Assembly (NCBI RefSeq): GCF_007713735.2
Contig: NZ_VMNW02000028.1
Span: 1 to 64,000 of the forward strand
Origin: Amycolatopsis acidicola
Lineage (GTDB): Bacteria; Actinomycetota; Actinomycetes; Mycobacteriales; Pseudonocardiaceae
DNA: 64,000 bases
Direction: 5' to 3'
Below, piece after piece: positions 24,614-42,053 of the stretch. Position 1 is the stretch's first letter. Every line of letters starts with the position of its first letter. A model generated the notes under the pieces. The model worked only from the letters and a program-made list of their open reading frames with translations, made no database searches and was not told where the DNA came from. A program made the position numbers and the translations under genes.

Positions 24614-24643
24614 CTCCGCCGCTCCGATCCCCAGCCTGCTTTT

Positions 24644-24864: not shown

Positions 24865-24866
24865 CG

Positions 24867-26135
24867 TCACTCCCGCACAGCCTCCGGCATCTCCCTCAAC
24901 CGGCCGACCGGCGAAAGCAGCAGCGGCACCAGAATCGCCGAGGAACCGAGCGCGCAGACCCACAGCGCCGCGTGCACGCCGATCGCGCCGCCGAGCAGTC
25001 CGGCGAACGGGCCGCCGAGCGCGCCCATACCGAGCAGCAGGGTGCGCATGGCCGAGTTCATCCGGCCCATCAGCCGCATCGGGGTGATCACCTGCCGCAG
25101 CGTCACGATGATCACGTTGACCCCGCTCACGCCGAGGAAGTTGAGCAGGAACGCGGCGGCGAACACGGTCACCACCAGCGGTTCCGGCCCGGCCGCCGCC
25201 GGGATCAGCAGCGGGGCGAGGAACGTGATCACCAGGAACCCGACGTACGCCCGCCCGACGGTGAACCGCCGGGTGAACCGGCCCGAGACCAGCGAACCCA
25301 CGACCCCGCCGACCGCGCCCATCGTCAGGATCACCCCGAGCAGCAGTGCCGACAATCCCTTGTCCCGCACCGCGTACAGCACGAAAATGGAGTCGACCGC
25401 GATCACGAAGAAGTTGCACAGCGCCCCCACCACGGCGACGGCGCGCAGGTAGCGGTTGCCCACCACGAAGCGCAGCCCCGCCAGCAGCTCCCGCCCGAGA
25501 TGCCGCCGCTCCGGCCGCGCCGGTTTCGGCTCCGGCGTGCGGATCAGCACCAGCGTGCCCAGCGAAACCAGGTACGACCCCGCGTCCACCAGCATCGCGA
25601 CGGGCGCGGTCAGCGCGCTGACCAGCGCTCCCCCGATGCCCGGCCCGGCCGCCTGCGCGCCGGACATGCTGGCGCCCAGCTTCGAGTTCGCCTCGATGAT
25701 CGAACGCCGGTCCTCGACGAGCACCGGTACGAACGACAGGAAGCTCACGTCGTAGAGCACCGTGGCGACCCCGGCCCCGAAGGCCACCACGAACAGCACC
25801 CACATGTGCAGCGCGCCGGCCAGCGCCAGCGCCGGGATGAGCCCGATCAGCAGCATGCGGGCGGCGTTCGCGGTGAGCATCGCGGGCTTGCGCCGGTGCC
25901 GGTCGACGAGCACGCCGAGCGGCAGGGCCAGCGCGAGCGCGGGCACCAGCTGCAGGAAACTCAGCCAGCCGATCTGCTGCGCCGTCGCGTCGAGCACCAG
26001 CACCGCGGTGAGCGGGAAGGCCAGCGAAGTCACCTGGCTGCCGGCCACCGACAGTGTCTCCCCCACCCAGAACTTCAGGAAATCCTTGTTGTGCCACAGG
26101 CTTTTCGGGGTGTCCCGGGTTTCCGCCGCGGTCAT
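24867..26135 (-). CDS. MFS exporter (EntS-like)
   Basis: The 422-residue protein has twelve predicted membrane helices and the MFS loop signature GVLVDRHRRKPAM between helices 2 and 3, of the MFS_3/EntS type that exports siderophores and other small peptides. It is the last gene of the 12-gene operon and its start overlaps the NRPS stop (ATGA). It is most simply the exporter of the NRPS product and may give self-resistance. Confidence 0.88.
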   Translation of the reverse strand: MTAAETRDTPKSLWHNKDFLKFWVGETLSVAGSQVTSLAFPLTAVLVLDATAQQIGWLSFLQLVPALALALPLGVLVDRHRRKPAMLTANAARMLLIGLIPALALAGALHMWVLFVVAFGAGVATVLYDVSFLSFVPVLVEDRRSIIEANSKLGASMSGAQAAGPGIGGALVSALTAPVAMLVDAGSYLVSLGTLVLIRTPEPKPARPERRHLGRELLAGLRFVVGNRYLRAVAVVGALCNFFVIAVDSIFVLYAVRDKGLSALLLGVILTMGAVGGVVGSLVSGRFTRRFTVGRAYVGFLVITFLAPLLIPAAAGPEPLVVTVFAAAFLLNFLGVSGVNVIIVTLRQVITPMRLMGRMNSAMRTLLLGMGALGGPFAGLLGGAIGVHAALWVCALGSSAILVPLLLSPVGRLREMPEAVRE

Positions 26136-29100
26136 CCGCCCGCCTCCAGCTCCGCCCGCACGGTCGCGGCGATGGCATGCAGCCCGGCACCCGACCAGAT
26201 CGAGAAGTGGTCACCGTCCACTGTGTACTCCTGGAACTCGTCGGCGTGGCGCCCCCACCGCATGAACGTGTCCGGCGACGCGGTAGCGCGGATGAGCACC
26301 AGGTTGCCGTGGAACGTGCCGCGTGGCCGGTACGCGGCCAGCGCGTCCACGTTCGCCCGGAACACCGCGTAGCGGCGCCGGAGGAACTCGGCGTCCATCT
26401 CCGGGGCCAGCGCGCCCGTCCCGGCCAGTTCGGTGAGCGCGGCTTCCGCGTCCACGTCCTGGTCGGCGACCGAGGCGAGCAGTTTCTCCAGCGCGGGCAC
26501 CACTCCGCCCGGCGTGCCCGCCATCTCCGCGGCGAACTGCCGCAGCAGCAGGTGTTCCGGCAGCACGCCACCCTTCTGACGCAGCTGCGAGTCGACGATG
26601 ACCAGCAGCGGCACCTCGACCCCGGCGTCCTGCAGCCGCAGGGCCATGTCGAAGGCGACCGTGCCGCCCATCGACCAGCCGAGCAGCCGGTAGGCGCCGG
26701 CCGGGCGGGTCTCGCGGAGCGCGTCGACGTACTCGGCGGCCAGCTCCTCGACCGTGCCCAGCGGGGTGCGGTCGTTGTCGAACCCCGGCGCCTCCAGGCT
26801 GAACACCGGGTGAGCGTCGAGCAGCCCGGCTAGACCGGAGTACGCGTAGGCGGAACCGGAAACCGGCGGCAGGCAGAACAACGGCGGCTGCTCGCCGTCC
26901 GCCTTCAGCACCACGAGCGGGTCGCGGTCGGCGGCCGCCCCGGTCGCGCGAAGGGCGTCGACCGTGCCCGCCACCGCGCTCACCATCGACGAGCCGTAGA
27001 GCTGCTTGACGTTCACCTTCACGCCGAACGCCCGGCTCAGCCTGCTGGCCAGCCGCATCGCCTGCAGCGAACTCCCGCCCAGCTCGAAGAAATCGTCCCC
27101 GGCGCCGACGCGCGCGAGCGAAAGCACCTCGGCGAACACCTCGGCCACCGTCGCCTCGGTCGGCGTGCGCGGCTCGATCCACTCCGCCACTTCGCGGGCC
27201 CGCTCGGGGCCGGCGGCCGGGTCCGGCAGCGCGGCCCGGTCGACCTTGCGCGCGGTGGTCAGCGGGAACTTGTCCAGCACGAGCCAGCTCGACGGCACCA
27301 TGTACCCGGGCAGCTGATCGCCGACGTGGCGACGCAGGTCGGCCGGAGTGGGCGCTTCCCGTTCCGCGGCCGGCACCACGTAACCGACCAAACGGTTGTC
27401 CCCGGCCGGATCCGGGCGCAGCGCGACCGCCGCCGCCGCGACGTCAGGATGACTCAGCAGCGCGGATTCGATCTCCTCCAGCTCGATCCGCAGCCCGTGC
27501 AGCTGCACCTGCGTGTCGAGCCTGCCGAAGAACTCCAGGTCCCCGTCCGCGTTCCAGCGCACGAGATCACCGCTGCGGTAGACGCGCCCGGTCGGCCGGA
27601 AGGGGTCGCGCACGAACTTCTCGGCGGTCAGCTCCGGCCGGTTGAGGTAGCCGCGGGCGAGCCCTTCCGCGCCCCCGATCAGCAGCTCCCCCGGCACACC
27701 CGGCGGCACGAGATTGTTCCACCGGTCCACCACGTACATCCGGCGGTCGGGATACGGCTTGCCGATCGGCGGGGCGCCGCGCCAGTCCCGGTGCGGGCAT
27801 TCGTACGCCGTGCAGCCGACGGCCGCTTCGGTCGGCCCGTACACGTTCACCAGCCTGCGCTCGCCGGTGTTCCACTTGTTCACCAGCTCGCCGGGCACGG
27901 CCTCCCCGCCCGCCATGATCTTGCGCAGCGCCGGGTAGGGTTCCGCGTCCAGCAGGGAAAGCATGGCCGGGGAGAAGCAGACGTAGCTCACCTGCTCGGC
28001 CCGCATCAGCTCGGCCAGCGCGTCCGCCGAGCCGCCGGTTTCGGGCGGCACCAGCACCAGCGTCGCGCCGACGGTGAGCCCGGTGAAGATCTCGCCCTGC
28101 GACATGTCGAAGGCGAGCGCGGCGAGCTGCAGCATCCGGTCGTCCGGGCCGAGTGAGAACGTGCGCCGGTAGGACTCGATGAACGACGTCAGCGCCCGGT
28201 GCTCGATCAGCACACCCTTCGGTTTCCCCGTGGAGCCCGAGGTGTAAAGCACGTAGGCGAGTGAATCGCGGGTGGCGGGCGCACTCTCCACTATGGACGG
28301 TGCGGCCTCGATCTCGTCCCATTGCGTGTCGAGGCAGATCATCGCCGGGGCGCGATCGGGCAGCTTGCCCGCGACGGCGGCCTGGGTGAGCACCAGCGGC
28401 GCCCCGGTGTCGGTGAGCATGAACTCCTGGCGGGCGGCCGGGTGCGCGGGGTCGAGTACGACGAACGCCGCGCCCGCCTTGAGCACGCCCAGCAGCGCGA
28501 CGAGGGTGTCCAGTTCGCGTTCCATCGCCACGGCGACGATGCGTTCCGGGCCGATTCCGTGTGCCCGCAGGTAGTTCGCGAGGATCCCGGCCCGGCGGTC
28601 CAGCTCGCCGTAGCTGAGCTCCTTGCCCCGGCAGACCGCCGCGATCGCGTCCGGGTCGGCCGCCGCGGTGCGCGCGATGACCTCGTGCACCGGGTCGGCC
28701 GGTGCCCCGGATCGCACGCCCTGGCCGTACTCCAGCAGTTGCCTGCGTTCGGCGCGCGATACCAGCGGCAGCTGGGAAATCCGCAGCGACGGGTCGCCGC
28801 ACATCGCGGACAGGACCCGCTCGACGTGTCCCGCGAGCGCCTGGATCCGCCACTCGTCGAACAGCTCGGTGGAGTACTCGATGCCCAGCGTCAGCTCGTC
28901 CCCCGCCTCCACGAACGTCAGCGCGAGATCGAACCGGGACTGCGCCCACTGCGCGTCGATGGGCGCGGTTTCGATGCCGGGGAACGCGAGGCCCCCGGCC
29001 GTGGTGCGCGCGCCCAGCAACTGCACGCACACGCCGAACAGCGGGTTCCGGCTGGGATCGCGCACCGGGCGCAGCCGGTCCACGACCTTCTCGAACGGCG

Positions 29101-30100
29101 CGTCCTGGTTGTCGAACGCGTCCAGGTTGGCCTCGGAAATCCGGGCGAGCAGCTCGTAGGCCGCCGGGTCGCCGGAGAGGTCGGTCCGCAGCACCACCAT
29201 GTTCGTGAAGAAGCCGACCAGGTCCTCCAGCTCCGGTTCGGTGCGCCCGGGCATGGGCACGCCGAGCGGTACGTCGTCCTGGCCGGTGTAGCGCGAGAGC
29301 ACCACGTTCACCGCCGCGACGAGCGGGACGAACAGCGAAACCCCTTGTGAGGCGGCGAATTCCCGCGCGCGGCGGAGCAGTTCGGGCGGCAGCGGGGCGC
29401 GCAGGGTGGCCCCGGCCGAGCTGAGTCCGGCGGGCCTCGGCCGGTCGGCGGGCAGGTCGAGCACCGGCAGCCCGGCGAGCTGCTCCGCCCAGTACTCCAG
29501 CTGCTCGGCGATGACGCCGGTGCCGAGCTGTTCGTGTTGCCAGGCAACGTAATCGCCGTAGCCGGTGGGCAGTTCCGGGAACTCCGGCCGCTCGCCTTCG
29601 TACAGCGCGCGGTAGGCGTCGGCGAGGTCGCGGTGGAGGATCGAAGCCGACCAGCCGTCGGTGACGATGTGGTGGATGGTCAGGCAGAGCACGTGCTCCC
29701 GCTCCCCGAGGCGGAAGAGCGTGAACCGGTACATCGGCCCTTCGGCGAGGTCGAACGGGGTGCCGATCTCTTCCAGCAACGCGGCGCCGACCTCGTTCTC
29801 CGACGCGCCCGTGAAGTCCTGGTATCGCAGCCGGACGGCGAGCTCGGCGGGCGCGATCACCTGGTACGGCGTGCCGTCGTCCGAGCCGAAGGTGGCGCGC
29901 AGGCTGTCGTGCCTGGCCACCACGGCCGCGAGCGCTTCGCCCATGATCTCCCGGTCGAGCGCGCCCAGCAGGCGGTGCACGATCGGCACGTTGTAGGTCG
30001 GTTCCCCCGGCGCCAGCTGGTCGAGAAACCACAGCTGCTGCTGCCCGTGCGACAACGGCAGCCGCTCCGCGCCTGAACTCTCCATTGTGGACCCCTCCAT
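26132..30100 (-). CDS. Single-module non-ribosomal peptide synthetase (C-A-T-TE)
   Basis: This 1322-residue NRPS has four domains. C: about 12-450, HHIVTDG at 143-149. A: about 475-960, A3 LYTSGSTGKPKG at 618-629, A10 lysine K952. T: DDFFELGGSSL with the pantetheine serine at 1011. TE: GWSMGG, S1143, probable D1170, H1298. By alignment to GrsA the specificity residues read D665, M666, G669, C708, I728, A730, V753, V761, G762, K952, a code I do not recognise. There is no MbtH gene and no donor carrier domain in the operon, so the C domain probably takes a CoA-bound or trans-supplied donor. ATG 30100 has GGGGGAGG upstream; ATG 30085 with GAGGGG is an alternative. Confidence 0.93.
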   Translation of the reverse strand: MEGSTMESSGAERLPLSHGQQQLWFLDQLAPGEPTYNVPIVHRLLGALDREIMGEALAAVVARHDSLRATFGSDDGTPYQVIAPAELAVRLRYQDFTGASENEVGAALLEEIGTPFDLAEGPMYRFTLFRLGEREHVLCLTIHHIVTDGWSASILHRDLADAYRALYEGERPEFPELPTGYGDYVAWQHEQLGTGVIAEQLEYWAEQLAGLPVLDLPADRPRPAGLSSAGATLRAPLPPELLRRAREFAASQGVSLFVPLVAAVNVVLSRYTGQDDVPLGVPMPGRTEPELEDLVGFFTNMVVLRTDLSGDPAAYELLARISEANLDAFDNQDAPFEKVVDRLRPVRDPSRNPLFGVCVQLLGARTTAGGLAFPGIETAPIDAQWAQSRFDLALTFVEAGDELTLGIEYSTELFDEWRIQALAGHVERVLSAMCGDPSLRISQLPLVSRAERRQLLEYGQGVRSGAPADPVHEVIARTAAADPDAIAAVCRGKELSYGELDRRAGILANYLRAHGIGPERIVAVAMERELDTLVALLGVLKAGAAFVVLDPAHPAARQEFMLTDTGAPLVLTQAAVAGKLPDRAPAMICLDTQWDEIEAAPSIVESAPATRDSLAYVLYTSGSTGKPKGVLIEHRALTSFIESYRRTFSLGPDDRMLQLAALAFDMSQGEIFTGLTVGATLVLVPPETGGSADALAELMRAEQVSYVCFSPAMLSLLDAEPYPALRKIMAGGEAVPGELVNKWNTGERRLVNVYGPTEAAVGCTAYECPHRDWRGAPPIGKPYPDRRMYVVDRWNNLVPPGVPGELLIGGAEGLARGYLNRPELTAEKFVRDPFRPTGRVYRSGDLVRWNADGDLEFFGRLDTQVQLHGLRIELEEIESALLSHPDVAAAAVALRPDPAGDNRLVGYVVPAAEREAPTPADLRRHVGDQLPGYMVPSSWLVLDKFPLTTARKVDRAALPDPAAGPERAREVAEWIEPRTPTEATVAEVFAEVLSLARVGAGDDFFELGGSSLQAMRLASRLSRAFGVKVNVKQLYGSSMVSAVAGTVDALRATGAAADRDPLVVLKADGEQPPLFCLPPVSGSAYAYSGLAGLLDAHPVFSLEAPGFDNDRTPLGTVEELAAEYVDALRETRPAGAYRLLGWSMGGTVAFDMALRLQDAGVEVPLLVIVDSQLRQKGGVLPEHLLLRQFAAEMAGTPGGVVPALEKLLASVADQDVDAEAALTELAGTGALAPEMDAEFLRRRYAVFRANVDALAAYRPRGTFHGNLVLIRATASPDTFMRWGRHADEFQEYTVDGDHFSIWSGAGLHAIAATVRAELEAGG

Positions 30101-30127
30101 CTTCAGTGCCTCCCCCGGCGGCCACGG

Positions 30128-31258
30128 TCATGTCGCGGCCGCCACCTTCGCCGGCCAGGACCGGCGGTAGAGCTCCAGCAGGGCCGGTTTGGTCACGGCG
30201 ACCGGCGTGTTCTCCAGCACCGGCCGGTAGGTCGCCGCGAGCCCCGCGAGCCGCGGCAGATCCCCGTCCGGCACGCAGTAGGTGTCCAGCCCGGTGGGTA
30301 CGCCCAGTTCGTCGAGCAGCGCGGCGAACGCGGCGCCGACCTCGGCGGGGCGACCGTGCCAGGCCGCCAGCAGCGCGCCGTGCCGTTCACTGTCGTTCCC
30401 GCCCAACATGCTCAGCGCGGCCGGCGCGACGACCGCGTTGGCCCGGCCATGGCTGAGCCCGTACTCGCTGGTCAGCGGGTAGCCCAGCGCGTGCACGACG
30501 CCTGCGTTGGTGTTCGCCATCGCCACGCTCGCCAGCAGACAGCCGAAGCCCAGTTCCCGCGACACCCCGGGCTGACCGTCCACAACGGACTGAAGACTAC
30601 GGGTGATCCGGCCGACCGCCCGCAGCGCGAGGCCACTGGTGACCGGTGTCCCGGCCCGGGCGAAGAACGCTTCGATCGCGTGCAGCAACGAATCCAGCGC
30701 GGTGTCCAGCACGACTTCACGCGGCGCCGTCGCGGCCAGCGCCGGGTCGAGGAGCACGGCGCTGGGCCGCAGGCCGAGGCCGCTGACCGCGTACCGGCGG
30801 CCGTGCGGACCGGCGATCACCGCGTGCGCCGTGACCTCCGCGCCACCCGGCGTGGTCGGCACGGCGAACACGGGCGGCGCGGCGCCGGTGAACTGGCCGA
30901 GCCCTTCGAACTGGGCCAGGCGCGGGCTCCCCGGCTCACCGAGCAGGCCCGCCGCCGCCTTCGCCGCGTCGATGACGCTGCCGCCGCCGACCGCGACCAG
31001 CGCGTCGTGCCTGCCGGAGCGGTACGCCTGCGCGCACCGCTCCACCACGGTCTCGCCAGGGCAGCCGTGCACTCCCCGCCAGACGACCGGCTTCCGGTTC
31101 GACGCCAGGATCAGCGCCGCCACCAGATCGGCCCAGCCCGCCTCCGACACCCCCGCGTCGGTGACCACGAGCAGCCGCCGGATCCGCTTGTCCGTCAGCA
31201 CCCGCCGGAGCCCGGTGACCGGGCCGATCCGGACCGGCGGGCGAACCAGCGCGCTCAC
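30128..31258 (-). CDS. Iron-type alcohol dehydrogenase, copy 2
   Basis: This 376-residue group III dehydrogenase has the NAD(P)-binding motif VGGGSVIDAAK, the metal region LDTALDSLLHAIEAFF, and HALGYPLTSEYGLSHG with two histidines. It reduces a carbonyl or oxidises an alcohol, and members include maleylacetate reductase-like enzymes. It is one of two paralogous Fe-ADHs in the operon; each directly follows a transketolase C-half (ATGA overlap here). I infer that it reduces the ketone left after a ketol transfer. Confidence 0.88.
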   Translation of the reverse strand: MSALVRPPVRIGPVTGLRRVLTDKRIRRLLVVTDAGVSEAGWADLVAALILASNRKPVVWRGVHGCPGETVVERCAQAYRSGRHDALVAVGGGSVIDAAKAAAGLLGEPGSPRLAQFEGLGQFTGAAPPVFAVPTTPGGAEVTAHAVIAGPHGRRYAVSGLGLRPSAVLLDPALAATAPREVVLDTALDSLLHAIEAFFARAGTPVTSGLALRAVGRITRSLQSVVDGQPGVSRELGFGCLLASVAMANTNAGVVHALGYPLTSEYGLSHGRANAVVAPAALSMLGGNDSERHGALLAAWHGRPAEVGAAFAALLDELGVPTGLDTYCVPDGDLPRLAGLAATYRPVLENTPVAVTKPALLELYRRSWPAKVAAAT

Positions 31259-32223
31259 AGCCGCTCCAACGCCGAGCGAACGCCGTCGCGCACGTGCTCC
31301 GCGGAAAGGCCATACCTGGCCAGCATTTCCGGGTATTCGGCGGTGTCGGTGCAGAAGACGTCCGGCACGGCGAAGCGCAGCAGCGGCGCGGGGTGCCGGG
31401 TGAGCAGCGTGCTCGCGACCGCCGACCCCAGCCCGCCGTGGATGTTGTGGTCCTCGTAGGTGACGACCAGCCGCGCCACGCGGGCCGCGTCCACGATCGC
31501 CTTGGTGTCCAAGGGTTTCAGCGTGTGCATGTTCAGCACGCGCACGCGGAGCCCGTACTCGCCCAGCAGCCCGGCCGCCTCCAGCGCCTGCGGCACGATC
31601 TGGCAGCCGGTGGCGATGATCGCGACATCCGGCGAGCCAGTGCCCTCGGCGAGCGTGACCGCGCGGCCGAGGGTGAACTCGTAGTGCTCGCTGTACACCG
31701 GCGGCGTGTCGCCCCGGCTGAGCCGCAGGTACACCGGCCCGTCGTGGCGGAACGCGGCGACGGTGGCGCGGTACGCCTCGTACGCGTCGGCCGGCGAAAC
31801 CACCACCAGGTCCGGGATCGCCCTGGTGATCGCGATGTCCTCGAGGCAGCTGTGCGACGGGCCGGCGTAGCCACCGGAGAGCCCGGTGTAGTAGCCCGCG
31901 ATCTTCACGTTGCTGCCCGCGTACGCCGCGTCCAGCCGGATCTGCTCACACGCCCGCAGCACGGCGAAAGCCGCGAAGGTGTTGACGAACGGGACCTTAC
32001 CCGCCATCGCCATCCCGCAGGCGACGCTGACGAGATCGGCCTCCGCGATGCCCAGCTGCAGGTAGCGCGCGGGGAACTCCTTCCCGAACGGGACCGCGGG
32101 CAGCCCGAGGTCCCCCTCGACCGAGAACACCCGCTCGTTGAGCCGCGCCAGGTCGAGCTGCGCCTGCCTGCTGGTCACCCGGCTGGACAGGCCGTGCTCG
32201 GCGTACCAGTCCGCGAGCGTCAT
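31255..32223 (-). CDS. Transketolase C-terminal subunit, copy 2
   Basis: This 322-residue protein corresponds to the pyrimidine-binding and C-terminal domains of transketolase, with the thiamine-activating glutamate in LQLGIAEADL and FVNTFAAFAVLRACEQIR. The ThDP pyrophosphate-binding domain is absent and must come from the separate N-half at 35084-35923. It is paralogous to the C-half at 34095-35087. It starts by an ATGA overlap with the Fe-ADH before it and is followed by a second Fe-ADH, so [C-half, Fe-ADH] is repeated. A different acceptor preference from copy 1 is likely. Confidence 0.9.
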   Translation of the reverse strand: MTLADWYAEHGLSSRVTSRQAQLDLARLNERVFSVEGDLGLPAVPFGKEFPARYLQLGIAEADLVSVACGMAMAGKVPFVNTFAAFAVLRACEQIRLDAAYAGSNVKIAGYYTGLSGGYAGPSHSCLEDIAITRAIPDLVVVSPADAYEAYRATVAAFRHDGPVYLRLSRGDTPPVYSEHYEFTLGRAVTLAEGTGSPDVAIIATGCQIVPQALEAAGLLGEYGLRVRVLNMHTLKPLDTKAIVDAARVARLVVTYEDHNIHGGLGSAVASTLLTRHPAPLLRFAVPDVFCTDTAEYPEMLARYGLSAEHVRDGVRSALERL

Positions 32224-33389
32224 CGCGATCCCTCCCCCGCCACCTTGGCCACGACCCTGCGGATGTCCTCAGTGGACAGTGCGACCGGGTTGAGGCCGAG
32301 GTGGAAACCGTCTTCGAGCACCTTCGCCACGAGCGGGCCGATGTGCTCCTCCCGCACGCCGAGTTCGGCGGCGCCCGGGATTCCGCACTTCTCCACCAGC
32401 TCCCGGACGGCCGCGACCGCGGACTTGGCCGCCACGTAGTCGTCCGTGCCGTGGTCGGCGACGCCCATCGCCCTGGCGACGGCGGCCAGCCGGCCGGCCA
32501 GGTAGGGCAGGTTGAACTCCATCGCCTCGGCGAGGAACAGCCCGACGCCGACCCCGTGGTGCACGTCGAACAGCGCGTTCACCGCGTGCGCGAACGCGTG
32601 GTCCGCCGCTCCCCCGCCCTTCATGGAGATCCCGGCGGCCAGGCTGCCGATGGTCATCCACTCGCGGGCCTCGAGGTCCGCGCCGTCGGCCACCGCCACC
32701 GGCAGCCAGCGCGAGATCACCGAGATCGCGTACAACGCCATCCCGTCCGTCAGCGGCTGCCGTTCGGACGAGGTGTACGCCCCGATGGCGTGCGCCAGCG
32801 CGTCGATCCCCGAGGCCGCCGTGGGGCCGGGCGGGAGCCCGGCCGTCAGCTCCGGATCGCACAGCGCGACCTGCGCCGGCACCGCGACCACGTGCATCTT
32901 GAACACCCGCGCGCTGTCGGTGATGATCGCGCCCGCGACCACCTCGCTGCCGGTGCCCGACGTGGTCGGCACCAGCACCAGCGGCGGCACCGGGCTCCCC
33001 GGGGCCCTCGCGCCGTCTTCGAACTCGCGGATGTCCGCGCCGCCGGAGGCGACGACGGTCGCGGCGCATTTCGCCACGTCCATCGAGCTGCCGCCGCCGA
33101 CCCCGAGCACCCCGTCACAGCCCGCCGCGACGTACGCCTCGGCCGCGGCCGCCACCTGCTTCTCGGACGGATTGGTGGCCAGGTCGGAAAACACCGTCAC
33201 CGCGACGCCTTCGTCGCGCAACGCCGACAGCACCGGCTCGCACACCCCTGCACCGAGCACCCCGGGGTCGGTCACCACGAGCGCGTGCCGGATCCCTTGT
33301 GCCTTCGCCAGTCCGCCCGCACTGGCGGCGACCCCGCGTCCATAGTGGACTTCGGGGACCAGCTGGAAGAAACTCGGTTCAGTGAGCAT
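32220..33389 (-). CDS. Iron-type alcohol dehydrogenase, copy 1
   Basis: This 389-residue Fe-dependent dehydrogenase has VGGGSSMDVAK, PTTSGTGSEV, and metal ligands in GIDALAHAIGAYTS and ADHAFAHAVNALFDVHHG. It is closer to the classic propanediol/butanol dehydrogenase type than copy 2. It overlaps the racemase-like gene by 11 bp and the following transketolase C-half by 4 bp. It probably handles an aldehyde or hydroxyketone intermediate. Confidence 0.9.
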   Translation of the reverse strand: MLTEPSFFQLVPEVHYGRGVAASAGGLAKAQGIRHALVVTDPGVLGAGVCEPVLSALRDEGVAVTVFSDLATNPSEKQVAAAAEAYVAAGCDGVLGVGGGSSMDVAKCAATVVASGGADIREFEDGARAPGSPVPPLVLVPTTSGTGSEVVAGAIITDSARVFKMHVVAVPAQVALCDPELTAGLPPGPTAASGIDALAHAIGAYTSSERQPLTDGMALYAISVISRWLPVAVADGADLEAREWMTIGSLAAGISMKGGGAADHAFAHAVNALFDVHHGVGVGLFLAEAMEFNLPYLAGRLAAVARAMGVADHGTDDYVAAKSAVAAVRELVEKCGIPGAAELGVREEHIGPLVAKVLEDGFHLGLNPVALSTEDIRRVVAKVAGEGSR

Positions 33390-34095: not shown

Positions 34096-35087
34096 CACTT
34101 CCACCTCCGCAGAGCGGATTCGACCGCCGCGCGCACGCCGGGTACGTCGAGGCCGCACCGGGCCAGCTGGTCGGCGTACGAGCCGACGTCGTGGGCGAAC
34201 GCGTCGGGCAGGCCGAGCATCCGCATCGGGACCGGGCAGCTCCCGGCGAGCACGTCGGCCACCGCGCCGCCGAGCCCGCCGATCGTCGAATGCTCCTCGA
34301 CGGTCACCACGAGCCCGGTCGCTTTCGCGGACCGGACAAGGAGTTCCTCGTCGACCGGCTTGATCGTGTGCAGGTCGATCACGGTGGCGTGCACGCCGCG
34401 CGCGGCCAGCTGCCGCGCCGCTTCGAGCACCGTCGCGACCGTGGTCAACCCGGCCGCCACGAGGGTCACGTCCGCGCCTTCGGCGAGCACGTTGCCGCGG
34501 CCGATCTCGAAGGTCGCGTTCTCGTCGTAAACCTGGGGCGTCGCCTCCACCCCGAGCCGCAGGTACACCGGGCCGTCGAGCTGCGCGGCGGCCAGGGTCA
34601 GCTGGTACGCGCTGACCGCGTCGGCCGGCGCGAGCACCGTCATCCCCGGCAGCGACCGCGCCACGGCGAGGTCCTCGCCGCAGTGGTGGGTCGGGCCGGA
34701 GAACCCGGCCGCGACGCCGGTGAACGTTCCGGCGATCTTCACGTTCGTCCGGTGGTAGGCCACGTCGAGCCGGACCTGCTCGCAGGCCCGCATCAGCGCG
34801 AAACTGCCGAACGTGTTGACGAACGCGACCTTCCCGCGCAGCGCGAGCCCCGCGGCCGCGCCGATCAGGCTCGCCTCGGCGATGCCCATGTCCAGGAACC
34901 GCCCCGGATACCTTTCGGCGAACCGCAGCCCGCCGAAGTCGCCGAGGTCGCCCTCCAGCGAGAACACCCGGCCGTCGCGGTCCGCGGCGTGCAGCTGCGC
35001 GAGCCGGCAGGTGTCCACGGCGGACAGGCCGTAGCGCTCGACCCAGGCCGTGCTGCCGCACGCCGGTTCCACCACCACGGAGGTCAT
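34095..35087 (-). CDS. Transketolase C-terminal subunit, copy 1
   Basis: This 330-residue protein holds the transketolase pyrimidine and C-terminal domains, with LDMGIAEASLIGAAAG (activating glutamate), FVNTFGSFALMRACEQVR and the later VEEHSTIGGLGGAV. The ATG at 35087 overlaps the N-half stop (ATGA), so the two are made together and should form the primary heterodimeric enzyme. Split transketolases in biosynthetic clusters transfer a two-carbon ketol unit to an aldehyde. Confidence 0.92.
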   Translation of the reverse strand: MTSVVVEPACGSTAWVERYGLSAVDTCRLAQLHAADRDGRVFSLEGDLGDFGGLRFAERYPGRFLDMGIAEASLIGAAAGLALRGKVAFVNTFGSFALMRACEQVRLDVAYHRTNVKIAGTFTGVAAGFSGPTHHCGEDLAVARSLPGMTVLAPADAVSAYQLTLAAAQLDGPVYLRLGVEATPQVYDENATFEIGRGNVLAEGADVTLVAAGLTTVATVLEAARQLAARGVHATVIDLHTIKPVDEELLVRSAKATGLVVTVEEHSTIGGLGGAVADVLAGSCPVPMRMLGLPDAFAHDVGSYADQLARCGLDVPGVRAAVESALRRWK

Positions 35088-35923
35088 CTCGCCCCCTGGT
35101 CCAGCTCGCCGAGCGCCTGTTCGTACTGCGCCTCGGTGAACTTCCCGTAGTGCCACAGGTGCGTGTTCGAGGTGAACGACAGCCCGTGCCCCTTCTCCGT
35201 ATGCGCGACGAGACAGGTCGGTTTCCCCGTGGCAGCGGGGACTTTGTGCAGCGCGGCGCTCAGGTCGCCCACGTCGTGACCGTCCACTTCGGTCACTTCC
35301 CAGCCGAAGCTGCGCCATTTGTCGGCGAACGGCTCCAGCCGCATGATCTCCTCGGTCGGCCCGTCCTCCTGGAACCCGTTGCGGTCCACGATCGCGACCA
35401 GGTTGTCCAGGCGATAGTGCCCCGCGGCCATCGCCGACTCCCACACCGAGCCCTCCTGGCATTCGCCGTCGCCCAGCACGACGAACACGCGGTAGTTCGC
35501 GCGGTCGTACGCCCCGGCGAGGGCGAGCCCGGTGCCGACCGGCAGGCCGTGCCCGAGCGAGCCGGTGGCCAGCTCGACCCCGGGGATGCTCCGCGACGGG
35601 TGCCCGGCGAACCGGCTGCCCGGGGTCTTGTACCCGGCCAGCTCATCGATGGGGAAGAAGCCCCGCTCGGCCAGCGCGGCGTACAGCGACGCCGAGGAAT
35701 GTCCCTTGCTGTAGATGAGGAAATCCCGTTCCGGCCAGTCCGGCCGCGCCGGGTCGACCCGCAGCACGTCGTCGAACAGCAGGACGGTCAGGATCTCCAC
35801 CGAAGACATCGAGCCCCCGACGTGCGCGCCAGGGCTGTGCGTCGCCAGTTCGACGATGTGCCTGCGCAGCCGGTGCGCCATCGCGATGAGATCGGTGTGG
35901 TTGGCAACGGTCGTGATACTCAT
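35084..35923 (-). CDS. Transketolase N-terminal subunit
   Basis: This 279-residue protein is the ThDP pyrophosphate-binding half. It has KGHSSASLYAALAERG, GSLGHGLPVGTGLAL and the magnesium/ThDP motif GDGECQEG starting at residue 151 and ending at N182. No second N-half is present, so it must serve both C-halves at 34095 and 31255. It follows the DegT aminotransferase by 26 bp. Primary-metabolism transketolases are single chains of about 700 residues, so this split form is a dedicated pathway enzyme. Confidence 0.92.
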   Translation of the reverse strand: MSITTVANHTDLIAMAHRLRRHIVELATHSPGAHVGGSMSSVEILTVLLFDDVLRVDPARPDWPERDFLIYSKGHSSASLYAALAERGFFPIDELAGYKTPGSRFAGHPSRSIPGVELATGSLGHGLPVGTGLALAGAYDRANYRVFVVLGDGECQEGSVWESAMAAGHYRLDNLVAIVDRNGFQEDGPTEEIMRLEPFADKWRSFGWEVTEVDGHDVGDLSAALHKVPAATGKPTCLVAHTEKGHGLSFTSNTHLWHYGKFTEAQYEQALGELDQGAR

Positions 35924-35949
35924 GGCCCCTCTTCCGTGTTTCTGCTGGA

Positions 35950-37281
35950 TCACCACAGCCGGTCGCCGTCCTCCCACGGCTCGGCGTAGTCGATGGTTCG
36001 CGCGTACGCGGCCAGCTCCCCCAGCCGGCCGAACACCTTCACGAAGGCGTCCTCGTACGCGGAGATCGCCGCCGGGTCCCGGAACGAAGCCGGGCACAGC
36101 CTGCTGCCGACCAGCAGCGAGCCGGAGATCACCGCGAGCGTCGAGGTGTACTCCTCCGGCCGGTATTCGACCGTCCGCGCGGTGTGCCCGCAGGTCCACG
36201 GGCAGCCCCGGCCGTAGCCGACGCGCTCGGCGAACAGGCGCTGGCCGGGCAGCGGCCGGTTCTGGTAGCCGATCACCGGGATCCCCTCGGCGGTCAGCGC
36301 CTCGCCGACCACGCGTCGGAACGGCCCCGGTGCGACGTCGAGCCCGGCCTGTGCCGGGTCGAACCGCACCCGGAAGTGGTGGTACACATGGGTTCTGCCG
36401 TCCGGGACGACCGGCGGCAGCACGCCGGGCAGCTCGCTCAGCGTCCCGGTGAGCCGGTTCGCGCCCGCCCTGGTCTCGTCGATGTAGGTGTCGAGCCGCG
36501 CCAGCTGGGAGCGGGTGAACGCGGCGAGGATGGAGCTGAACCGGTAGTTCCAGCCGAGCGTGTGCGCGTGGTAGTCGCGGTGCCCGTCCGGATCGATGGT
36601 CTCGCCGAACATCTTCACCGCGTCCGCGCGGTTGCGCAGGCCGGTATCGTTCGTCGTTAGCAGCCCGCCTTCGCCCGCGGTGGCCAGGTTCTTCCCGGCC
36701 ATGATGCTGAACGCGCCGAGATCGCCGAGCGCGCCGGCCCGCACCCCGTCCACCGTGGCGCCGTGCGCCTGCGCCGCGTCCTCGATCACCACCAGCCCGT
36801 GCCGGCGCGCGATCTCGCTGACGGCGGCCATGTCGGCGGGCAAGCCGTGCAGGTGTACCGCGATGATCGCCTTGGTGCGCCGGGAGATCCGGTGCTCCAC
36901 ATCGGACGGATCGAGGGTGAACGTGACCGGGTCGACGTCCGCGAACACCGGGATGCCCTGGTGGTGCAGGACGCAGGTGGCGGAGGCGAGGAAGCTCAGC
37001 GCGGGCACGATCACCTCGTCGCCCGGCCCGATCCCCGCCGCCGCGACGGCCGCGTGCAGCGCCGCCGTCCCGCTGTTCACCGCGAGGCAGTGCGCGGTAC
37101 CGGTGTACCCGGCCCACTCCCGTTCCAGCTCGCGCACCTGGTCGTCGTTCATCCAGCTCAGGCGCCCGGAACGGAGCGTGTCGGTGACCGCGGCGATGTC
37201 GGTTTCGGTGACCTCGGGCCAGTTCTCGTCGATCCCCTTCGGCGCCACCGGGGTGCCGCCGAACAACGCGAGCGCGCTCAC
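35950..37281 (-). CDS. DegT/DnrJ/EryC1 PLP-dependent aminotransferase
   Basis: This 443-residue aminotransferase has the fold-type I signature: NSGTAALHAAV, VIEDAAQAHGA (D168 contacts the PLP ring nitrogen) and the Schiff-base lysine K197 in FSIMAGKNLATAGEGG. The GTG at 37281 overlaps the upstream stop (GTGA). This family transfers an amino group to a sugar-like or hydroxy-ketone carbon. Beside a transketolase, the simplest reading is amination of the ketol product. The usual lysine context TKN is AGKN here. Confidence 0.9.
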   Translation of the reverse strand: MSALALFGGTPVAPKGIDENWPEVTETDIAAVTDTLRSGRLSWMNDDQVRELEREWAGYTGTAHCLAVNSGTAALHAAVAAAGIGPGDEVIVPALSFLASATCVLHHQGIPVFADVDPVTFTLDPSDVEHRISRRTKAIIAVHLHGLPADMAAVSEIARRHGLVVIEDAAQAHGATVDGVRAGALGDLGAFSIMAGKNLATAGEGGLLTTNDTGLRNRADAVKMFGETIDPDGHRDYHAHTLGWNYRFSSILAAFTRSQLARLDTYIDETRAGANRLTGTLSELPGVLPPVVPDGRTHVYHHFRVRFDPAQAGLDVAPGPFRRVVGEALTAEGIPVIGYQNRPLPGQRLFAERVGYGRGCPWTCGHTARTVEYRPEEYTSTLAVISGSLLVGSRLCPASFRDPAAISAYEDAFVKVFGRLGELAAYARTIDYAEPWEDGDRLW

Positions 37282-38456
37282 CGGAGGGTTCCCGGCAGCA
37301 GCTGGAGCTCCCTGGGCACCACCTTGCCGGTCAGCACCTCGCAGCCCGTCTCGGTGACGACGACGGTCTCGCTGAACCCGACGTGCCCGTTCAGCTCCGG
37401 CACGATCAGCGACGGCACCAGGTGGAAGACCATGTTGGGCCGCAACACGGTTTCGTCGCCGGGGTGGAGGTTCATGATGTGGCTTTCGTTCCAGCCCGGC
37501 GGATAGCAGACGCCGATGGAATAGCCGGTCTCGTGCGTGAAGTCCCCGAAACCGTGGCTCACCAGGGTCTTCCGGCACGCGTCGTCCACGGCGCCGGACG
37601 TGACCCCGGCACGGATGGTGCCGATCGCTGCCTCCAGCCCGTCGACCACCGCCGCGACGCGGCCGGTGACCGCGGCGGGCGGATCGCCGATGAACGCCGC
37701 GCGCATCATCGCCGCGCTGTAGCGGCGGACGCAGCCGGAGAACTCCAGGAACACGATGTCCCCGTCGCGCAGCTCGCGGCCTTCCCAGGTGCCGTGCGGC
37801 AATCCCGAACGTTCCCCGCTGATCACGTACGGCGGGCTCCCCGGGTACTCACTGCCGTGGCGCAGCGTGCCGCCGTACACCGCGGCCGCCACCTCGTTCT
37901 CGGTCACGCCGGGGCGGGCAGTGTCCAAAGCGGACCGCATCCCGGCCATCGCCGCCCCGGCGGCGAGCCGGATGTAGTCGATCTCGGCGGGCGACTTGAC
38001 CAGCCGCACCGCCTCGACCAGCCCGCTGCCGTCCACCCAGCGGGTCTGGGGCAGCGCGGCGACGAGCCGGTGGTAGGTGCGGATGGGGAAGAAGTAGCCG
38101 CTCTCCTCGATGGAGGTGACCTTCCCCCGCGCGCCGACCTCGTCGAGCGCGTCGACCGTGACCTCGATCGGATCCTGCGTGACGTCGTAGTCGGTGTAAC
38201 GCTCCAGCCAGGACAGCCGCTGCACGTTGATCCGCTCCTCGCGGTACGTCAGCAGCAGCGGCTCGCCCTCGGCCGGCACCAGCAGGGTCTGGTACATGTA
38301 ATAGCCGAGCGTGGTGTAGCCGGTGAGGTAGTAGATGTTCTCCGGTACGGAGATCATCGCGACGTCGATCTCCCGCGCCGCCATGCCCTCGCGCACCCGG
38401 GCCAGTCTCGTCCGGTACTCGTCGAGCGTGAACGGCAGATTTTCGTTCTCCCGCAT
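37278..38456 (-). CDS. M24-fold hydrolase resembling ectoine hydrolase (DoeA/EutD)
   Basis: The 392-residue creatinase-fold protein resembles DoeA/EutD along its C-terminal half: LEFSGCVRRYSAAMMRAAFIG, ETGYSIGVCYPPGWNESH and LRPNMVFHLVP. The metal aspartates of M24 peptidases are replaced (E in FLEFSG and A in RYSAAMMR), as in metal-independent ectoine hydrolase, so no dinuclear metal site is expected. Ectoine catabolism genes are otherwise absent. It may cleave or form a cyclic amidine or amide on the cluster's intermediate. A GAGGGGG ribosome site precedes ATG 38456. Confidence 0.83.
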   Translation of the reverse strand: MRENENLPFTLDEYRTRLARVREGMAAREIDVAMISVPENIYYLTGYTTLGYYMYQTLLVPAEGEPLLLTYREERINVQRLSWLERYTDYDVTQDPIEVTVDALDEVGARGKVTSIEESGYFFPIRTYHRLVAALPQTRWVDGSGLVEAVRLVKSPAEIDYIRLAAGAAMAGMRSALDTARPGVTENEVAAAVYGGTLRHGSEYPGSPPYVISGERSGLPHGTWEGRELRDGDIVFLEFSGCVRRYSAAMMRAAFIGDPPAAVTGRVAAVVDGLEAAIGTIRAGVTSGAVDDACRKTLVSHGFGDFTHETGYSIGVCYPPGWNESHIMNLHPGDETVLRPNMVFHLVPSLIVPELNGHVGFSETVVVTETGCEVLTGKVVPRELQLLPGTLR

Positions 38457-38478
38457 GGATTCCCCCTCGTGGTGATGG

Positions 38479-41199
38479 TCAGCCGGCCGGACGGCCGAAT
38501 TCGTGCAAGGTGAGCCGTGGCCCGTCCCGGCGCACGAAGGCGCCGCCGTGCCATTCCCAGACCCAGCCGGAGCGGCGCCGTCCGCCATAGGGCGCGAGCG
38601 GCAGCCTGCGCCGGTGCTCCAGCCAGGTTTCGCCGGTGAACACCTCGCCGTGCGTGCGGGCGAGTCTCGCCGCGATGTCCGTGGTGCCCCCGAAAACGGT
38701 CGCGGTGAGCCCGTAGACCGAGTCCTCCGCCAGTTCGACGGCCTCGTCCGCGGAGTCGGCCTGGACGATCGGGAGCACCGGCCCGAAGGTCTCGGCGCGC
38801 ATCACGTCCATGTCGTGCCCGACGTCGACGAGCACCGCCGGTTCGATCAGCACGCGGTCCCCGACGTTGTGCGCCTTGCCGCCGTACAGCAGCTTCGCGC
38901 CGGCCTTGGTCGCCGCGTCGAGCTGGGCGAGCACCCGGCTCGCCGTCGCACGGTCCAGCGGCGCGATGTCCGTCGCCTCGTCCCAGTGCTCGCCGATCGC
39001 CAGCGCCGCGGTCAGTTCCGCGACCTGGCCCACGAACTCCGGGTAGATCTCGCGGTGCACGTAGAACCGTTCCGGCGCGGTGCACGCCTGGCCGGCGTTG
39101 TAGAGCCCGGCGGCCACCGCGGCGGCCGCGGCCTCGGGCACGGAAGCGCCGGGCAGCACCAGAAACGGGTCCTTGCCGGGGCCTTCGAACACGAACCGGG
39201 TCCCCGTCTTGCGGGCGGGTTCCTCGTAGCCCCGCGCCCAGTTGTCGTCGCCGAACGCCATCACCGCGCCGATCCCGGGGTCGGCCATCGACTCGCCGAG
39301 GAAGACAGGCCCGGCCCGGTCGCTGAACTCGACCCTGCCGGACAACGCGGGCCGCAGGAGGTCCGCGAGAATCTCCGCCCAGCGCGCGCGTCGGCCCGGA
39401 AGCCGGGCGAGCGTGCGGTTTCCGGCCAGGTAGGACGCACCTATGGTGGCCACCGGGTTGCTCAGGATCGCGTTACCGGGCAGGCACAACGCGACCTTGC
39501 CGACCGGCTCCCGCCCCTGCAGCGCGTCGAGCGCGCCGGGAAACGCGCGCAGCCGCGTGATCGCCAGCCGGATGTCCGAACGGATCACCTTGCGGCTGAA
39601 CGGGAACAGCTCGACCGCGAGGTCCTCCAGCTCACCGGCGGTGTCCTCGACGACGTCAGCCAGCTTCGCCAGCTGTTCCGCGCGCTCCGCCACGGACGAC
39701 CCGAACCCGTGTCCATTGTGGACTTCGCGCTTCGCCGCCATCGCGGCCGCCTTGCGCTGCAACGCACTCCGCGCGACCTTCTCCGTGGCCGTCACCGGCA
39801 GGCGATGCATGATGTGGATCTCACGTGGCCGTTTGAACGGGGCGAGTGCACGGGCACACGCCTGTTCCACCAGCCCGCGGTCCACGACGAACCGCGGCAG
39901 CGGCTCCAGGAAGACCTCGATCTCCTGGCCACCGAAGGGATCCGGGACCCCGAGCGCGACCGCCCGGCGCACCCCGGCACAGGCCTCGACCACCCGCTCG
40001 ATCTCCGCCGGGTCGATGTTCTCCCCGCGCCGCCGGATCAGGTCGTCCGTCCGGCCCGCGAAGGTCAGCATCCCGGCTTCGTCGCGCCGCACCAGGTCGC
40101 CGGTGGCGAACCAGTGGCCGGTGAAGGCCTGCCTCGTCGCGGCCGGGGCGCGGAAGTAACCCGACATCATCGCCGGGTTGCGGCGTACCAGCAGCCGTCC
40201 GGTGCCCGGCCCGTGGACGGTGGCGCCGACGGCGTCGATCAGCCTGATCCGGACGTGGTCGAGCGGTTCGCCGAGCGTGCCGGGATTCGGCGCGTCCCAG
40301 CGCCCGCACAGCAGGGTGTTCGTCTCGGACAGCCCGAAGCCTTCCACGACGGGAACGCCGTAGCGCGCGGTGAAAAGGCGTGCGGTCTCCGCGGGCGCTC
40401 CGCCTCCATAGACAACGCGCAGCGTTGTCGAGAGGTCGTCCGGGTCGGCGGGCCGCGCACACAGCACGGCGAGCATCTCGCCGAGGTGGCGGAACACCGT
40501 CGCCCGGTACTTCCGCACCTCCGGCCAGAACCGGCTGCCGCTGAACCTGGGCCGCAGCACCACGTGCGCGCCACGGTGGGCGGCCGACGCGAGCAACGAC
40601 AGCCCTGCCATATGGTGCAACGGAAGGACGTGCAGGACGACGTCCTCGTGGCTGATCCCGAGCCGCTCGCAGAACTCCTCGACCGGCAGCACGAAACTCA
40701 GCTGGCTGAGCACGCAGCCCTTCGGCTTCCCGGTCGAGCCCGAGGTGAACAGCACGACCAGCGGGCTCTGCGCCGACACCGGGCCGTCCGGCGGATCGCC
40801 ACCGCCGGACAGCTCACTGACCACCCGGAAAGGCCCGAGCGTGTCCGCGAGTTCCTTGCGGTGCGGCGGAACCAGCACCAGCGACGGCGCCGCGGTGGTC
40901 ACCAGCGCGCGCAGTTCCTTGTCGGTCAGGCGTTCGTCCAGCGGCACCAGCACCGCGCCGAGCCGCGCGCAGGCGAACCACAGGAACGCCAGCTCCGGCC
41001 CGTTCGGCAGCACCACGGCGACACGGTCGCCGAAACCCACCCGGTGCCGGGCCAGCGCGGCGGCCACCTCGGTGACGTGCTCCAGCGCGGCGCGGTAGGT
41101 GACTGTCTCGTCCTGGCCGTCCGGGCGCGTCCAGGTCAGGAACGGCCGTTCGGGATGACGCCCGGCGGTGCGGCGCAGGACGTCGATGACGGTCAGCAC
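38479..41199 (-). CDS. AMP-ligase / aldehyde dehydrogenase fusion protein
   Basis: This 906-residue fusion has two parts. Residues 1-480 form an ANL acid ligase (FTSGSTGKPKG at 151-161, GFGLSETN, K474 in TATEKVARSAL). Residues 530-906 form an aldehyde dehydrogenase with E672 and the catalytic C706 (NAGQACTAPE), spaced 34 residues as in classical ALDHs, plus ETFGPV at 803-808. There is no carrier domain between them, unlike carboxylic acid reductases. It could reduce an activated acid to an aldehyde, or oxidise an aldehyde and then activate the acid. The first option would supply the aldehyde acceptor for the transketolase. Confidence 0.9.
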   Translation of the reverse strand: MLTVIDVLRRTAGRHPERPFLTWTRPDGQDETVTYRAALEHVTEVAAALARHRVGFGDRVAVVLPNGPELAFLWFACARLGAVLVPLDERLTDKELRALVTTAAPSLVLVPPHRKELADTLGPFRVVSELSGGGDPPDGPVSAQSPLVVLFTSGSTGKPKGCVLSQLSFVLPVEEFCERLGISHEDVVLHVLPLHHMAGLSLLASAAHRGAHVVLRPRFSGSRFWPEVRKYRATVFRHLGEMLAVLCARPADPDDLSTTLRVVYGGGAPAETARLFTARYGVPVVEGFGLSETNTLLCGRWDAPNPGTLGEPLDHVRIRLIDAVGATVHGPGTGRLLVRRNPAMMSGYFRAPAATRQAFTGHWFATGDLVRRDEAGMLTFAGRTDDLIRRRGENIDPAEIERVVEACAGVRRAVALGVPDPFGGQEIEVFLEPLPRFVVDRGLVEQACARALAPFKRPREIHIMHRLPVTATEKVARSALQRKAAAMAAKREVHNGHGFGSSVAERAEQLAKLADVVEDTAGELEDLAVELFPFSRKVIRSDIRLAITRLRAFPGALDALQGREPVGKVALCLPGNAILSNPVATIGASYLAGNRTLARLPGRRARWAEILADLLRPALSGRVEFSDRAGPVFLGESMADPGIGAVMAFGDDNWARGYEEPARKTGTRFVFEGPGKDPFLVLPGASVPEAAAAAVAAGLYNAGQACTAPERFYVHREIYPEFVGQVAELTAALAIGEHWDEATDIAPLDRATASRVLAQLDAATKAGAKLLYGGKAHNVGDRVLIEPAVLVDVGHDMDVMRAETFGPVLPIVQADSADEAVELAEDSVYGLTATVFGGTTDIAARLARTHGEVFTGETWLEHRRRLPLAPYGGRRRSGWVWEWHGGAFVRRDGPRLTLHEFGRPAG

Positions 41200-42053
41200 G
41201 CCGTTCTCCGCTGCAGCACGTACGCGGGATGCGGGCCGGTGCGGCGGAAGTCCACCGCCACGTAGCCGCGCGCGAAGTACTCGGTGAACACCGCGCGGAT
41301 CTCCGCCCGCCAGGCCCGTGCCGCGCCGAGGTCGGCGTGCTTGATCGCGCCGAGGTCACCGGGTACCGCGACCAGCACGCGCGGCGTCTCCCGGTCCAGG
41401 TGCACGGATCGGTTGCAGGGCAAGCCGTTCCGCTCGATCACGCGGTTCGCGGGTGACTCGCTGAGCGAGCCCGGCGCGGTGTTCCGCGGTTCCGGCCACG
41501 GGCTGCGGCGCAGCCACCATTCGGCCAGCAGCCGGTCGGTGTCGAGGCCGGCGTTGAGCCCACTGCCGGTGCCGTAGACGTTCACCCGGTAGTCGCGCGC
41601 GATCGCGCCGAGCCTGCGCACGTTGAGCGCCGCGTTCCCGGCCAGCAGCGGGTCGAAGGTCCAGGTGATGAGCTCGATCCCGGCGTCGAGCGCCGCCCGG
41701 CGCTGCGCCAGCTTCAGGCGCCTGCCGATGCCGTGCGAGCGGTACAGCGGATGCACGCACAACAGCACGGAGCACTGTTTCAGCGCGCCGCCCTGGCTGA
41801 TCCCCGGAAACGAGTAGACGAACCCCGCGAGCTCCCCGCCGCCGTCGAACGCACCGAGGACGATCCCGCCGTTCTCCTGCGCGGTCAGCAGCTCCAGCAG
41901 CGGGATGCCGACGATGTCACTGGTCCCCCAGACCAGGTCCTGCAGACGCTCACACTGGCGGTATTCGTCCGTTCCCCACACCCGCCGGACGGTGACCGCC
42001 GGACTCGGTGCCACCGCGGGCGCCTGGGCAGCCCGCATCAAGATCCCGGCCAT
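41193..42053 (-). CDS. GNAT-superfamily acetyltransferase-like protein (COG3375 type)
   Basis: The 286-residue protein has LVWGTSDIVGIPLLELL, the acetyl-CoA-binding region HPLYRSHGIGRRLK (an R/QxxGxG/A variant) and LITWTFDPLLAGNAALNVRRLG followed by YGTGSGLNAGLDTDRLLAEW, typical of the COG3375 GNAT group. The biochemical role of that group is not established. The ATG at 42053 has GAGGGGG directly upstream. It is the first gene of the 12-gene operon. It may acylate the amine made by the DegT enzyme. Confidence 0.82.
   Translation of the reverse strand: MAGILMRAAQAPAVAPSPAVTVRRVWGTDEYRQCERLQDLVWGTSDIVGIPLLELLTAQENGGIVLGAFDGGGELAGFVYSFPGISQGGALKQCSVLLCVHPLYRSHGIGRRLKLAQRRAALDAGIELITWTFDPLLAGNAALNVRRLGAIARDYRVNVYGTGSGLNAGLDTDRLLAEWWLRRSPWPEPRNTAPGSLSESPANRVIERNGLPCNRSVHLDRETPRVLVAVPGDLGAIKHADLGAARAWRAEIRAVFTEYFARGYVAVDFRRTGPHPAYVLQRRTAC

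Follow-up and report, generated by a model that had tools for sequence, protein, structure and literature searches.

What does the twelve-gene operon that includes a one-module non-ribosomal peptide synthetase (NRPS) gene of Amycolatopsis acidicola make, and how is its building block assembled? The operon occupies positions 42053 to 24867, minus strand, of the stretch of 64,000 nucleotides that was analyzed here (contig NZ_VMNW02000028.1, positions 1 to 64,000; hereafter, the window). On balance, the operon probably makes a non-proteinogenic amino-polyol amino acid by a CoA-activated variant of the diamino-dihydroxy-heptanoic acid (DADH) pathway that does without the LysW-type carrier protein (AmCP), and the product would feed the one-module NRPS and the MFS exporter.

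Translation of the window showed twelve intact and closely packed genes, which are listed below from the first gene of the operon to the last.

41193..42053, minus strand: GNAT-fold acyltransferase of 286 aa, the operon's first gene (predicted fold; no profile match)
38479..41199, minus strand: acyl-CoA ligase (approximately aa 1-490) fused to an aldehyde dehydrogenase (ALDH; approximately aa 490-906) in one open reading frame (ORF) (PF00501 and PF00171)
37278..38456, minus strand: M24-fold, ectoine-hydrolase (DoeA)-like C-N hydrolase with lost metal ligands (NCBIfam DoeA models below cut-off; alignments)
35950..37281, minus strand: DegT/DnrJ/EryC1 aminotransferase, Fic25-like (phmmer; tree clade of seven clusters)
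35084..35923, minus strand: transketolase N-terminal subunit (TKN), the half that binds the diphosphate of thiamine diphosphate (PF00456; GDG...N motif read by eye)
34095..35087, minus strand: transketolase C-terminal subunit 1 (TKC1) (PF02779 and PF02780; Glu kept, phosphate-pocket Arg lost)
33379..34095, minus strand: Asp/Glu racemase-fold protein (RAC) (NCBIfam PRK07475, 1.3e-51, below cut-off)
32220..33389, minus strand: iron-type alcohol dehydrogenase 1 (ADH1), choline dehydrogenase/lactaldehyde reductase-like (PF00465 and PF25137; NCBIfam GbsB best, below cut-off)
31255..32223, minus strand: transketolase C-terminal subunit 2 (TKC2) (PF02779 and PF02780; Glu and Arg both kept)
30128..31258, minus strand: iron-type alcohol dehydrogenase 2 (ADH2) (PF00465 and PF25137)
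26132..30100, minus strand: single-module NRPS, C-A-T-TE, 1322 aa (Pfam domains)
24867..26135, minus strand: MFS exporter (PF07690, PF05977), with a relative beside another NRPS in the genomes G214, G693, and G697

Eight of the eleven gene junctions overlap by 1-11 bp and the remaining three are gaps of 22, 26, and 27 bp, which bears out the almost gapless leftward run of twelve genes described in an earlier, sequence-only reading of this DNA. The gene names proposed in that reading agree with the Pfam and NCBIfam matches, with two amendments: the GNAT protein has no profile match and was recognized by its predicted fold, and the split transketolase consists of one N-half and two C-halves. The loss of the M24 metal ligands also went unmentioned in that reading. 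The GNAT fold call comes from a low-confidence model (57), and the fold lists leave other families possible.

The nearest solved relative of the DegT protein according to phmmer (E 7e-112) is Fic25 of Streptomyces ficellus (8gyh, 8gyi, and 8gyj). The two proteins are 47-50% identical over 220-253 aligned residues, K197 of DegT aligns with the Fic25 Lys, and the title of one Fic25 entry names a PLP-(5S,6S)-N2-acetyl-DADH adduct as its bound partner. Perosamine synthetase, BtrR, and other sugar or cyclitol aminotransferases have the DegT fold and the PLP lysine in common with the window's protein, but the named solved sugar enzymes match it at 2e-56 or worse. The structural model of DegT is poor (pLDDT 49, 4 sequences) and served solely for reading entry titles; the Fic25 kinship rests on phmmer.

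Relatives were searched for with the ligase-ALDH protein in 249 genomes of the family, presumably Pseudonocardiaceae given that Lentzea belongs to it, and with DegT in 390 genomes of the family; these samples and those of the class (394 genomes) and phylum (396 genomes) overlap in part. Seven of the 390 genomes are of the window's type, namely the window's own genome (G000), G214, G693, G697, G007 (Lentzea aerocolonigenes NBRC 13195), G193, and G170, and the DegT proteins of the relatives are 64-68% identical to that of the window. An eleven-gene set (GNAT, ligase, ALDH, M24, DegT, TKN, TKC1, RAC, ADH1, TKC2, and ADH2) is complete in six of them; G170 has ten of the eleven genes on two contigs, with a contig ending where TKC2 would be. 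In the same G170 loci (L012 and L021 of a 630-contig draft), the matches to DegT, M24, and TKN are each broken in two, as after a frame change, through either sequencing error or decay. The set adjoins NRPS genes in all seven clusters seen, in support of the earlier claim that these genes and the NRPS belong together. In addition, the synteny comparison proposed at that time showed that the window's order from GNAT to NRPS is retained in G214, G693, and G697, whereas the Lentzea-type clusters have the genes in two blocks within a larger multi-NRPS locus.

The gene set is thus real, co-conserved, and rare within the searched samples. Within the 390-genome sample, the window's genus is represented by 18 genomes besides the window's own, and none of them gave a DegT match at 1e-90. 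Outside the family, no genome of the window's type was detected in the class sample, and in the phylum sample, searched with M24, the window's own genome alone matched. A search of 295 genomes of the genus of G603, run without a positive control, gave 0 matches. In a wider contig scan, in which 80 of 579 candidates were listed, Lentzea aerocolonigenes was the sole one of the listed matches above 48%, and the fetched stretches of the remaining 79 listed loci contained no other gene of the set at 1e-15.

The Lentzea aerocolonigenes cluster (L015, 15301-16407, and L016) is a large hybrid NRPS locus around the same amino-acid genes. It additionally encodes a PLP enzyme resembling capreomycidine synthase/GntC as well as flavin monooxygenase-like and N-monooxygenase-like proteins, all of them below cut-off, and a B12 radical-SAM tryptophan 2-C-methyltransferase, which scores above its cut-off.

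As for the carrier machinery, neither the window nor the loci of the relatives contain a small ORF with an EEDWGE-type AmCP motif; such ORFs are present in nine comparison loci. Genome-wide, AmCP gave no match in five of the seven genomes of this type (G000, G693, G697, G007, and G170), and all four control genomes were positive (G603, the source of the query, G421, G654, and G110). In G214 and G193, AmCP adjoins a second, weaker DegT elsewhere in the genome. In tblastn at 1e-15, LysX, the ArgB-like kinase, and the ArgC-like reductase were without a match in both the window and the loci of the relatives, as was an M20 (LysK-like) release hydrolase in the window; the searches with these four queries covered these stretches only. 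The best models of the marker queries were LysW, LysX, [LysW]-aminoadipate kinase, ArgC, and [LysW]-lysine hydrolase; three of them (LysX, LysW, and the hydrolase) scored just under the curated cut-offs. The query for CysN (sulfation, aziridine) matched its own locus, L107, only, and the other comparison loci were also without a match near by. Since the proteins of the carrier route are unmatched in these loci, the pair of a transketolase and a Fic25-like aminotransferase appears to work here without a carrier. Two features of the AmCP-dependent DADH/azabicycle pathway are found in the operon, a Fic25-type DegT (in a separate clade) and a transketolase of separate subunits (TKN with TKC1 and TKC2); other defining features were searched for and not found in the window, and the operon is therefore not a member of that pathway.

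A phylogenetic tree of 22 DegT sequences, from which Fic25 itself was left out, placed the seven clusters of the window's type in one clade (99/98). A second clade comprised 12 sequences (100/100), and 11 of these lie within approximately 10 kb of AmCP and/or ArgB- plus ArgC-like genes. The three remaining DegT proteins, of L126, L128, and L137, are Fic25-like at approximately 45-50%; the 100/100 branch separates them from the 12 and leaves them with the seven, and no transketolase or carrier genes lie within approximately 10 kb of them. Weaker DegT matches occur at 22 places in the 390 genomes. Among the 12 of these places that were examined (two of them in G654), eight have ArgB, ArgC, TKN, and TKC together, L136 has AmCP and part of LysX only, and L126, L128, and L137 have none of these; among three other matches from the class sample, L106 and L107 have ArgB, ArgC, TKN, and TKC, and L108 does not. 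Most of the next DegT relatives examined thus lie in carrier-type clusters. This context and the kinship with Fic25 strengthen the analogy with vazabitide and ficellomycin that had been drawn from the transketolase and aminotransferase pair.

We infer every substrate, the order of the steps, the direction of the ligase and ALDH, the product, and the stand-in roles of GNAT, ligase with ALDH, and M24 from these families, as follows; in the earlier proposal, too, the starting aldehyde, the sequence of reactions, and the reduction are inferences. GNAT would block an amino group of the starting amino acid, presumably glutamate or a relative. The CoA ligase would activate the free carboxylate and the fused ALDH would reduce the thioester to an aldehyde, the jobs otherwise done by the ArgB- and ArgC-like enzymes. 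The split transketolase may then add a C2 ketol to the aldehyde, and the Fic25-like DegT would aminate the new ketone. The redox state and configuration would be adjusted by the iron-type alcohol dehydrogenases and by RAC, whose two Cys residues (NCG and ECT) are invariant in 7/7 clusters; two cysteines are expected in proton-transfer racemases. The metal-less M24 hydrolase may take off the blocking acyl group, as LysK does, before the A domain of the NRPS loads the product and the C and TE domains join and release it.

Several observations weigh against this scheme. The occurrence of DegT in L126, L128, and L137 without transketolase or carrier genes indicates that the DegT family has other uses too. 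A DADH-like product gives no explanation for RAC, two alcohol dehydrogenases, and a second transketolase C-half. The lone C-A-T-TE module has no obvious donor for its C domain, so that self-condensation or a donor from elsewhere is possible, and the NRPSs of the Lentzea-type clusters are different ones. Ring opening is the usual reaction of ectoine hydrolase, with the N-acetyl group left to a second enzyme, and deblocking by M24 alone is therefore a guess. In addition, the Glu expected to be lost in a CoA-acylating ALDH is retained in 7/7 clusters. Oxidizing ALDHs typically have this general-base Glu and the CoA-acylating, reductive ones are without it; together with the ALDH profile matches given below, this fits the opposite direction at least as well.

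The alternative that follows is rather unlikely overall but a serious rival, and keeps the transketolase and aminotransferase chemistry while reversing the ligase-ALDH protein. An iron-type alcohol dehydrogenase would oxidize the terminal CH2OH of the ketol, ALDH would carry it on to the carboxylate and thereby yield a beta-hydroxy-alpha-amino acid, and the CoA ester formed by the ligase would be the acyl donor of GNAT; the first aldehyde would come from an iron-type alcohol dehydrogenase or primary metabolism. Both the Cys and the Glu (FEGPGKDP) of ALDH are invariant in 7/7 clusters, and the profiles that match it best, though far below the cut-off, are those of succinic semialdehyde dehydrogenases. 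The GNAT and ligase genes are adjacent in 7/7 clusters, and the ligase and ALDH genes are apart in the three Lentzea-type clusters. However, this alternative leaves the operon without a counterpart of ArgB and ArgC for making the aldehyde. The preferred scheme is favored by the fusion, which indicates that the ligase and ALDH reactions are consecutive, although its order is silent on direction, and by the letters of the ligase pocket, MASRY[AG]GT[VL], which are alike in 7/7 clusters. The two enzymes share a frame only in the window and are in separate frames or apart in the six relatives.

The M24 protein raises another, improbable, alternative, namely that GNAT, DegT, and M24 make a cyclic amidine, an ectoine-like ring, on a diamine built by the transketolase and DegT, with M24 acting like an ectoine hydrolase in either direction. 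M24 is 77-78% identical in five relatives (in G170 it is in pieces), and both GNAT and M24 are present in 7/7 clusters. The protein is closest to ectoine hydrolase DoeA (6twk), with which it aligns nearly end to end. Compared with prolidase 1pv9, M24 is changed at most of the metal-ligand positions, and DoeA is changed likewise; these changes make a metallopeptidase role of M24 unlikely. On the other hand, M24 scores below both NCBIfam cut-offs for DoeA (324 vs 575 bits and 233.6 vs 613 bits), the Pfam matches of the operon include no EctC-like family, and the normal reaction of ectoine hydrolase is ring opening rather than closure. A plasmid search with M24 gave a single Rhizobium record (41.5%), and a second M24-family gene was found in the window at 8363-9490, plus strand, approximately 28 kb from the operon.

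Finally, ALDH, CoA ligase, iron-type alcohol dehydrogenase, split transketolase, and DegT families are common in sugar and polyol breakdown, and nucleotide-sugar DegT profiles match below cut-off, but a catabolic or aminosugar operon beside an unrelated NRPS, with polyol-breakdown enzymes and DegT as a sugar aminotransferase, is highly improbable because of the much closer kinship with Fic25 and the NRPS genes that adjoin all seven clusters, and the set occurs in just 7/390 family genomes.

In the preferred scheme of a carrier-free DADH variant, the two C-halves of the transketolase call for a closer look. TKC1 and TKC2 are 48% identical, and both contain the Glu of the GIAE motif, which we take to be catalytic. 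In the RxSRGxTP/RLGRxATP stretch, which was aligned with TSRPEN of full-length transketolase 6rjb, the Arg, presumably a phosphate ligand, is kept in TKC2 (6/6) and in carrier-type subunits (10/10) and is V or I in TKC1 (7/7). In the tree of C-halves, the TKC1 clade is supported at 98/99, TKC2 (84/98) and the carrier-type group (88/92) being moderately supported. The pattern of the Arg residue suggests a division of labor, in which TKC2 takes a phosphorylated ketose donor and TKC1 a non-phosphorylated partner. The genome's sole other N-half match (E <1e-50) lies on contig C118 and is followed after approximately 130 bp by a C-half match in a different frame; since this N-half precedes a C-half of its own, TKC2 most simply shares TKN. 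The closest solved chain to TKC2 is the C-half of the split transketolase of Carboxydothermus hydrogenoformans (6yaj, 6e-63; also 6yak), which is likewise a two-chain enzyme but differs in that the single N-half of the window is accompanied by two diverged C-halves. Only tentatively, TKN may serve both C-halves for two C2 additions to a growing chain, TKC2 being charged from a ketose phosphate and TKC1 acting on the non-phosphorylated partner, with the iron-type alcohol dehydrogenases resetting the aldehyde between rounds. If true, such an iterative, carrier-free "ketol elongation" would supply NRPSs with a new class of building blocks, the polyhydroxylated diamino acids.

The C, A, T, and TE domains of the NRPS were identified by Pfam, and the motifs HHIVTDG, LGGSSL, and GWSMG are intact as read in the translation. 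The nine-position signature of the A domain, set from a GrsA anchor, is DMGCMGVVG, and it is identical in 4/4 proteins, i.e., the window's NRPS and its counterparts beside ADH2 in G214, G693, and G697. These counterpart A domains are just 65-66% identical despite the same signature, which makes the same substrate likely. In the carrier-type loci, the letters are DVFDFGGV[AT] (L107, L131, L132, L133, and twice in L108), so that the substrate probably differs from theirs. An azabicycle product, as in the analogy drawn in the sequence-only reading, was not adopted: this signature is different, AmCP, LysX, the ArgB- and ArgC-like proteins, and CysN all have no match in the window, and nothing found here points to such a compound.

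In G214, G693, and G697, a second, divergent C-A-T NRPS lies beside the MFS gene and has the signature DMGGMGLVA (3/3). In the window's genome, no sibling of this second NRPS was found at E 1e-90, the next best matches being 41% and 37%. In G214, the TE of the first NRPS has an overlapping ORF of its own, and the T and TE matches are also apart in G693 and G697. The cluster is flanked by a third A domain, with the signature DMYHLGLVD, in G214 (L019/L020) and in G693 and G697 (L120-L125).

Two further features lie at the ends of the operon.

42054..42300, minus strand: presumed promoter region, a 247-bp gap to the upstream NUDIX-family gene (gene coordinates)
24644..24701, no strand assigned: strong, near-perfect inverted repeat of 58 bases in the intergenic region that separates the operon from a convergent ECF sigma-factor gene

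No sigma-70-type consensus match was found in 24400-42400, and the scan for promoters and T-tailed terminators gave nothing exceeding chance. The fold of 24635-24710 has an energy of -40.6 kcal/mol (z -6.4 vs 200 shuffles), and neither strand shows a T run after the stem; the repeat is a possible two-way terminator. The same intergenic region contains two similar copies of approximately 38 bases each at 24505-24612 (ccacccggcaacgc...gcgagccttcccga...accac), as read by eye. Rfam gave no match in 20000-46000, and no tRNA was found within the 64-kb window.

A carrier-free version of this chemistry, if real, would be a simple soluble pathway for reconstitution and engineering, in which the roles of carrier and transketolase could be separated by direct assay. 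It would predict that rare actinobacteria have another family of amino-polyol building blocks for NRPSs, and two C-halves on one N-half would be a test case for donor choice by transketolases.

In the literature covered, mainly titles and the openings of abstracts, with most subscription journals, MIBiG, and antiSMASH outside its scope, no characterized cluster with this gene set or order and no described product was found, in line with the earlier failure to recognize the cluster. The route to DADH by transketolase and aminotransferase is known from antibiotics that attack DNA; to our knowledge, it has been elucidated for the azinomycin, vazabitide, and ficellomycin types alone, and it is tied to AmCP in the latter two. 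In the azinomycin proposal as reviewed in PMC9570651, glutamate is N-acetylated, phosphorylated, and reduced to the semialdehyde, extended by two carbons by the transketolase AziC5/C6, and aminated to acetylated DADH, with AmCP named as an alternative known from vazabitide. The operon resembles this AziC1-C7 scheme in a putative N-acetyltransferase and semialdehyde, a transketolase of separate subunits, and an aminotransferase, and differs in the kinase and phosphate reductase AziC3/AziC4, of which no counterpart was found. With the ficellomycin, vazabitide, and azinomycin DADH pathways in general, it shares a Fic25-like DegT, a split transketolase, and the NRPS context. In place of their AmCP, LysX, ArgB-like kinase, ArgC-like reductase, and LysK-like hydrolase, which are unmatched in the window, the operon has GNAT, a CoA ligase, ALDH, M24, a racemase-fold protein, two iron-type alcohol dehydrogenases, and a second transketolase C-half.

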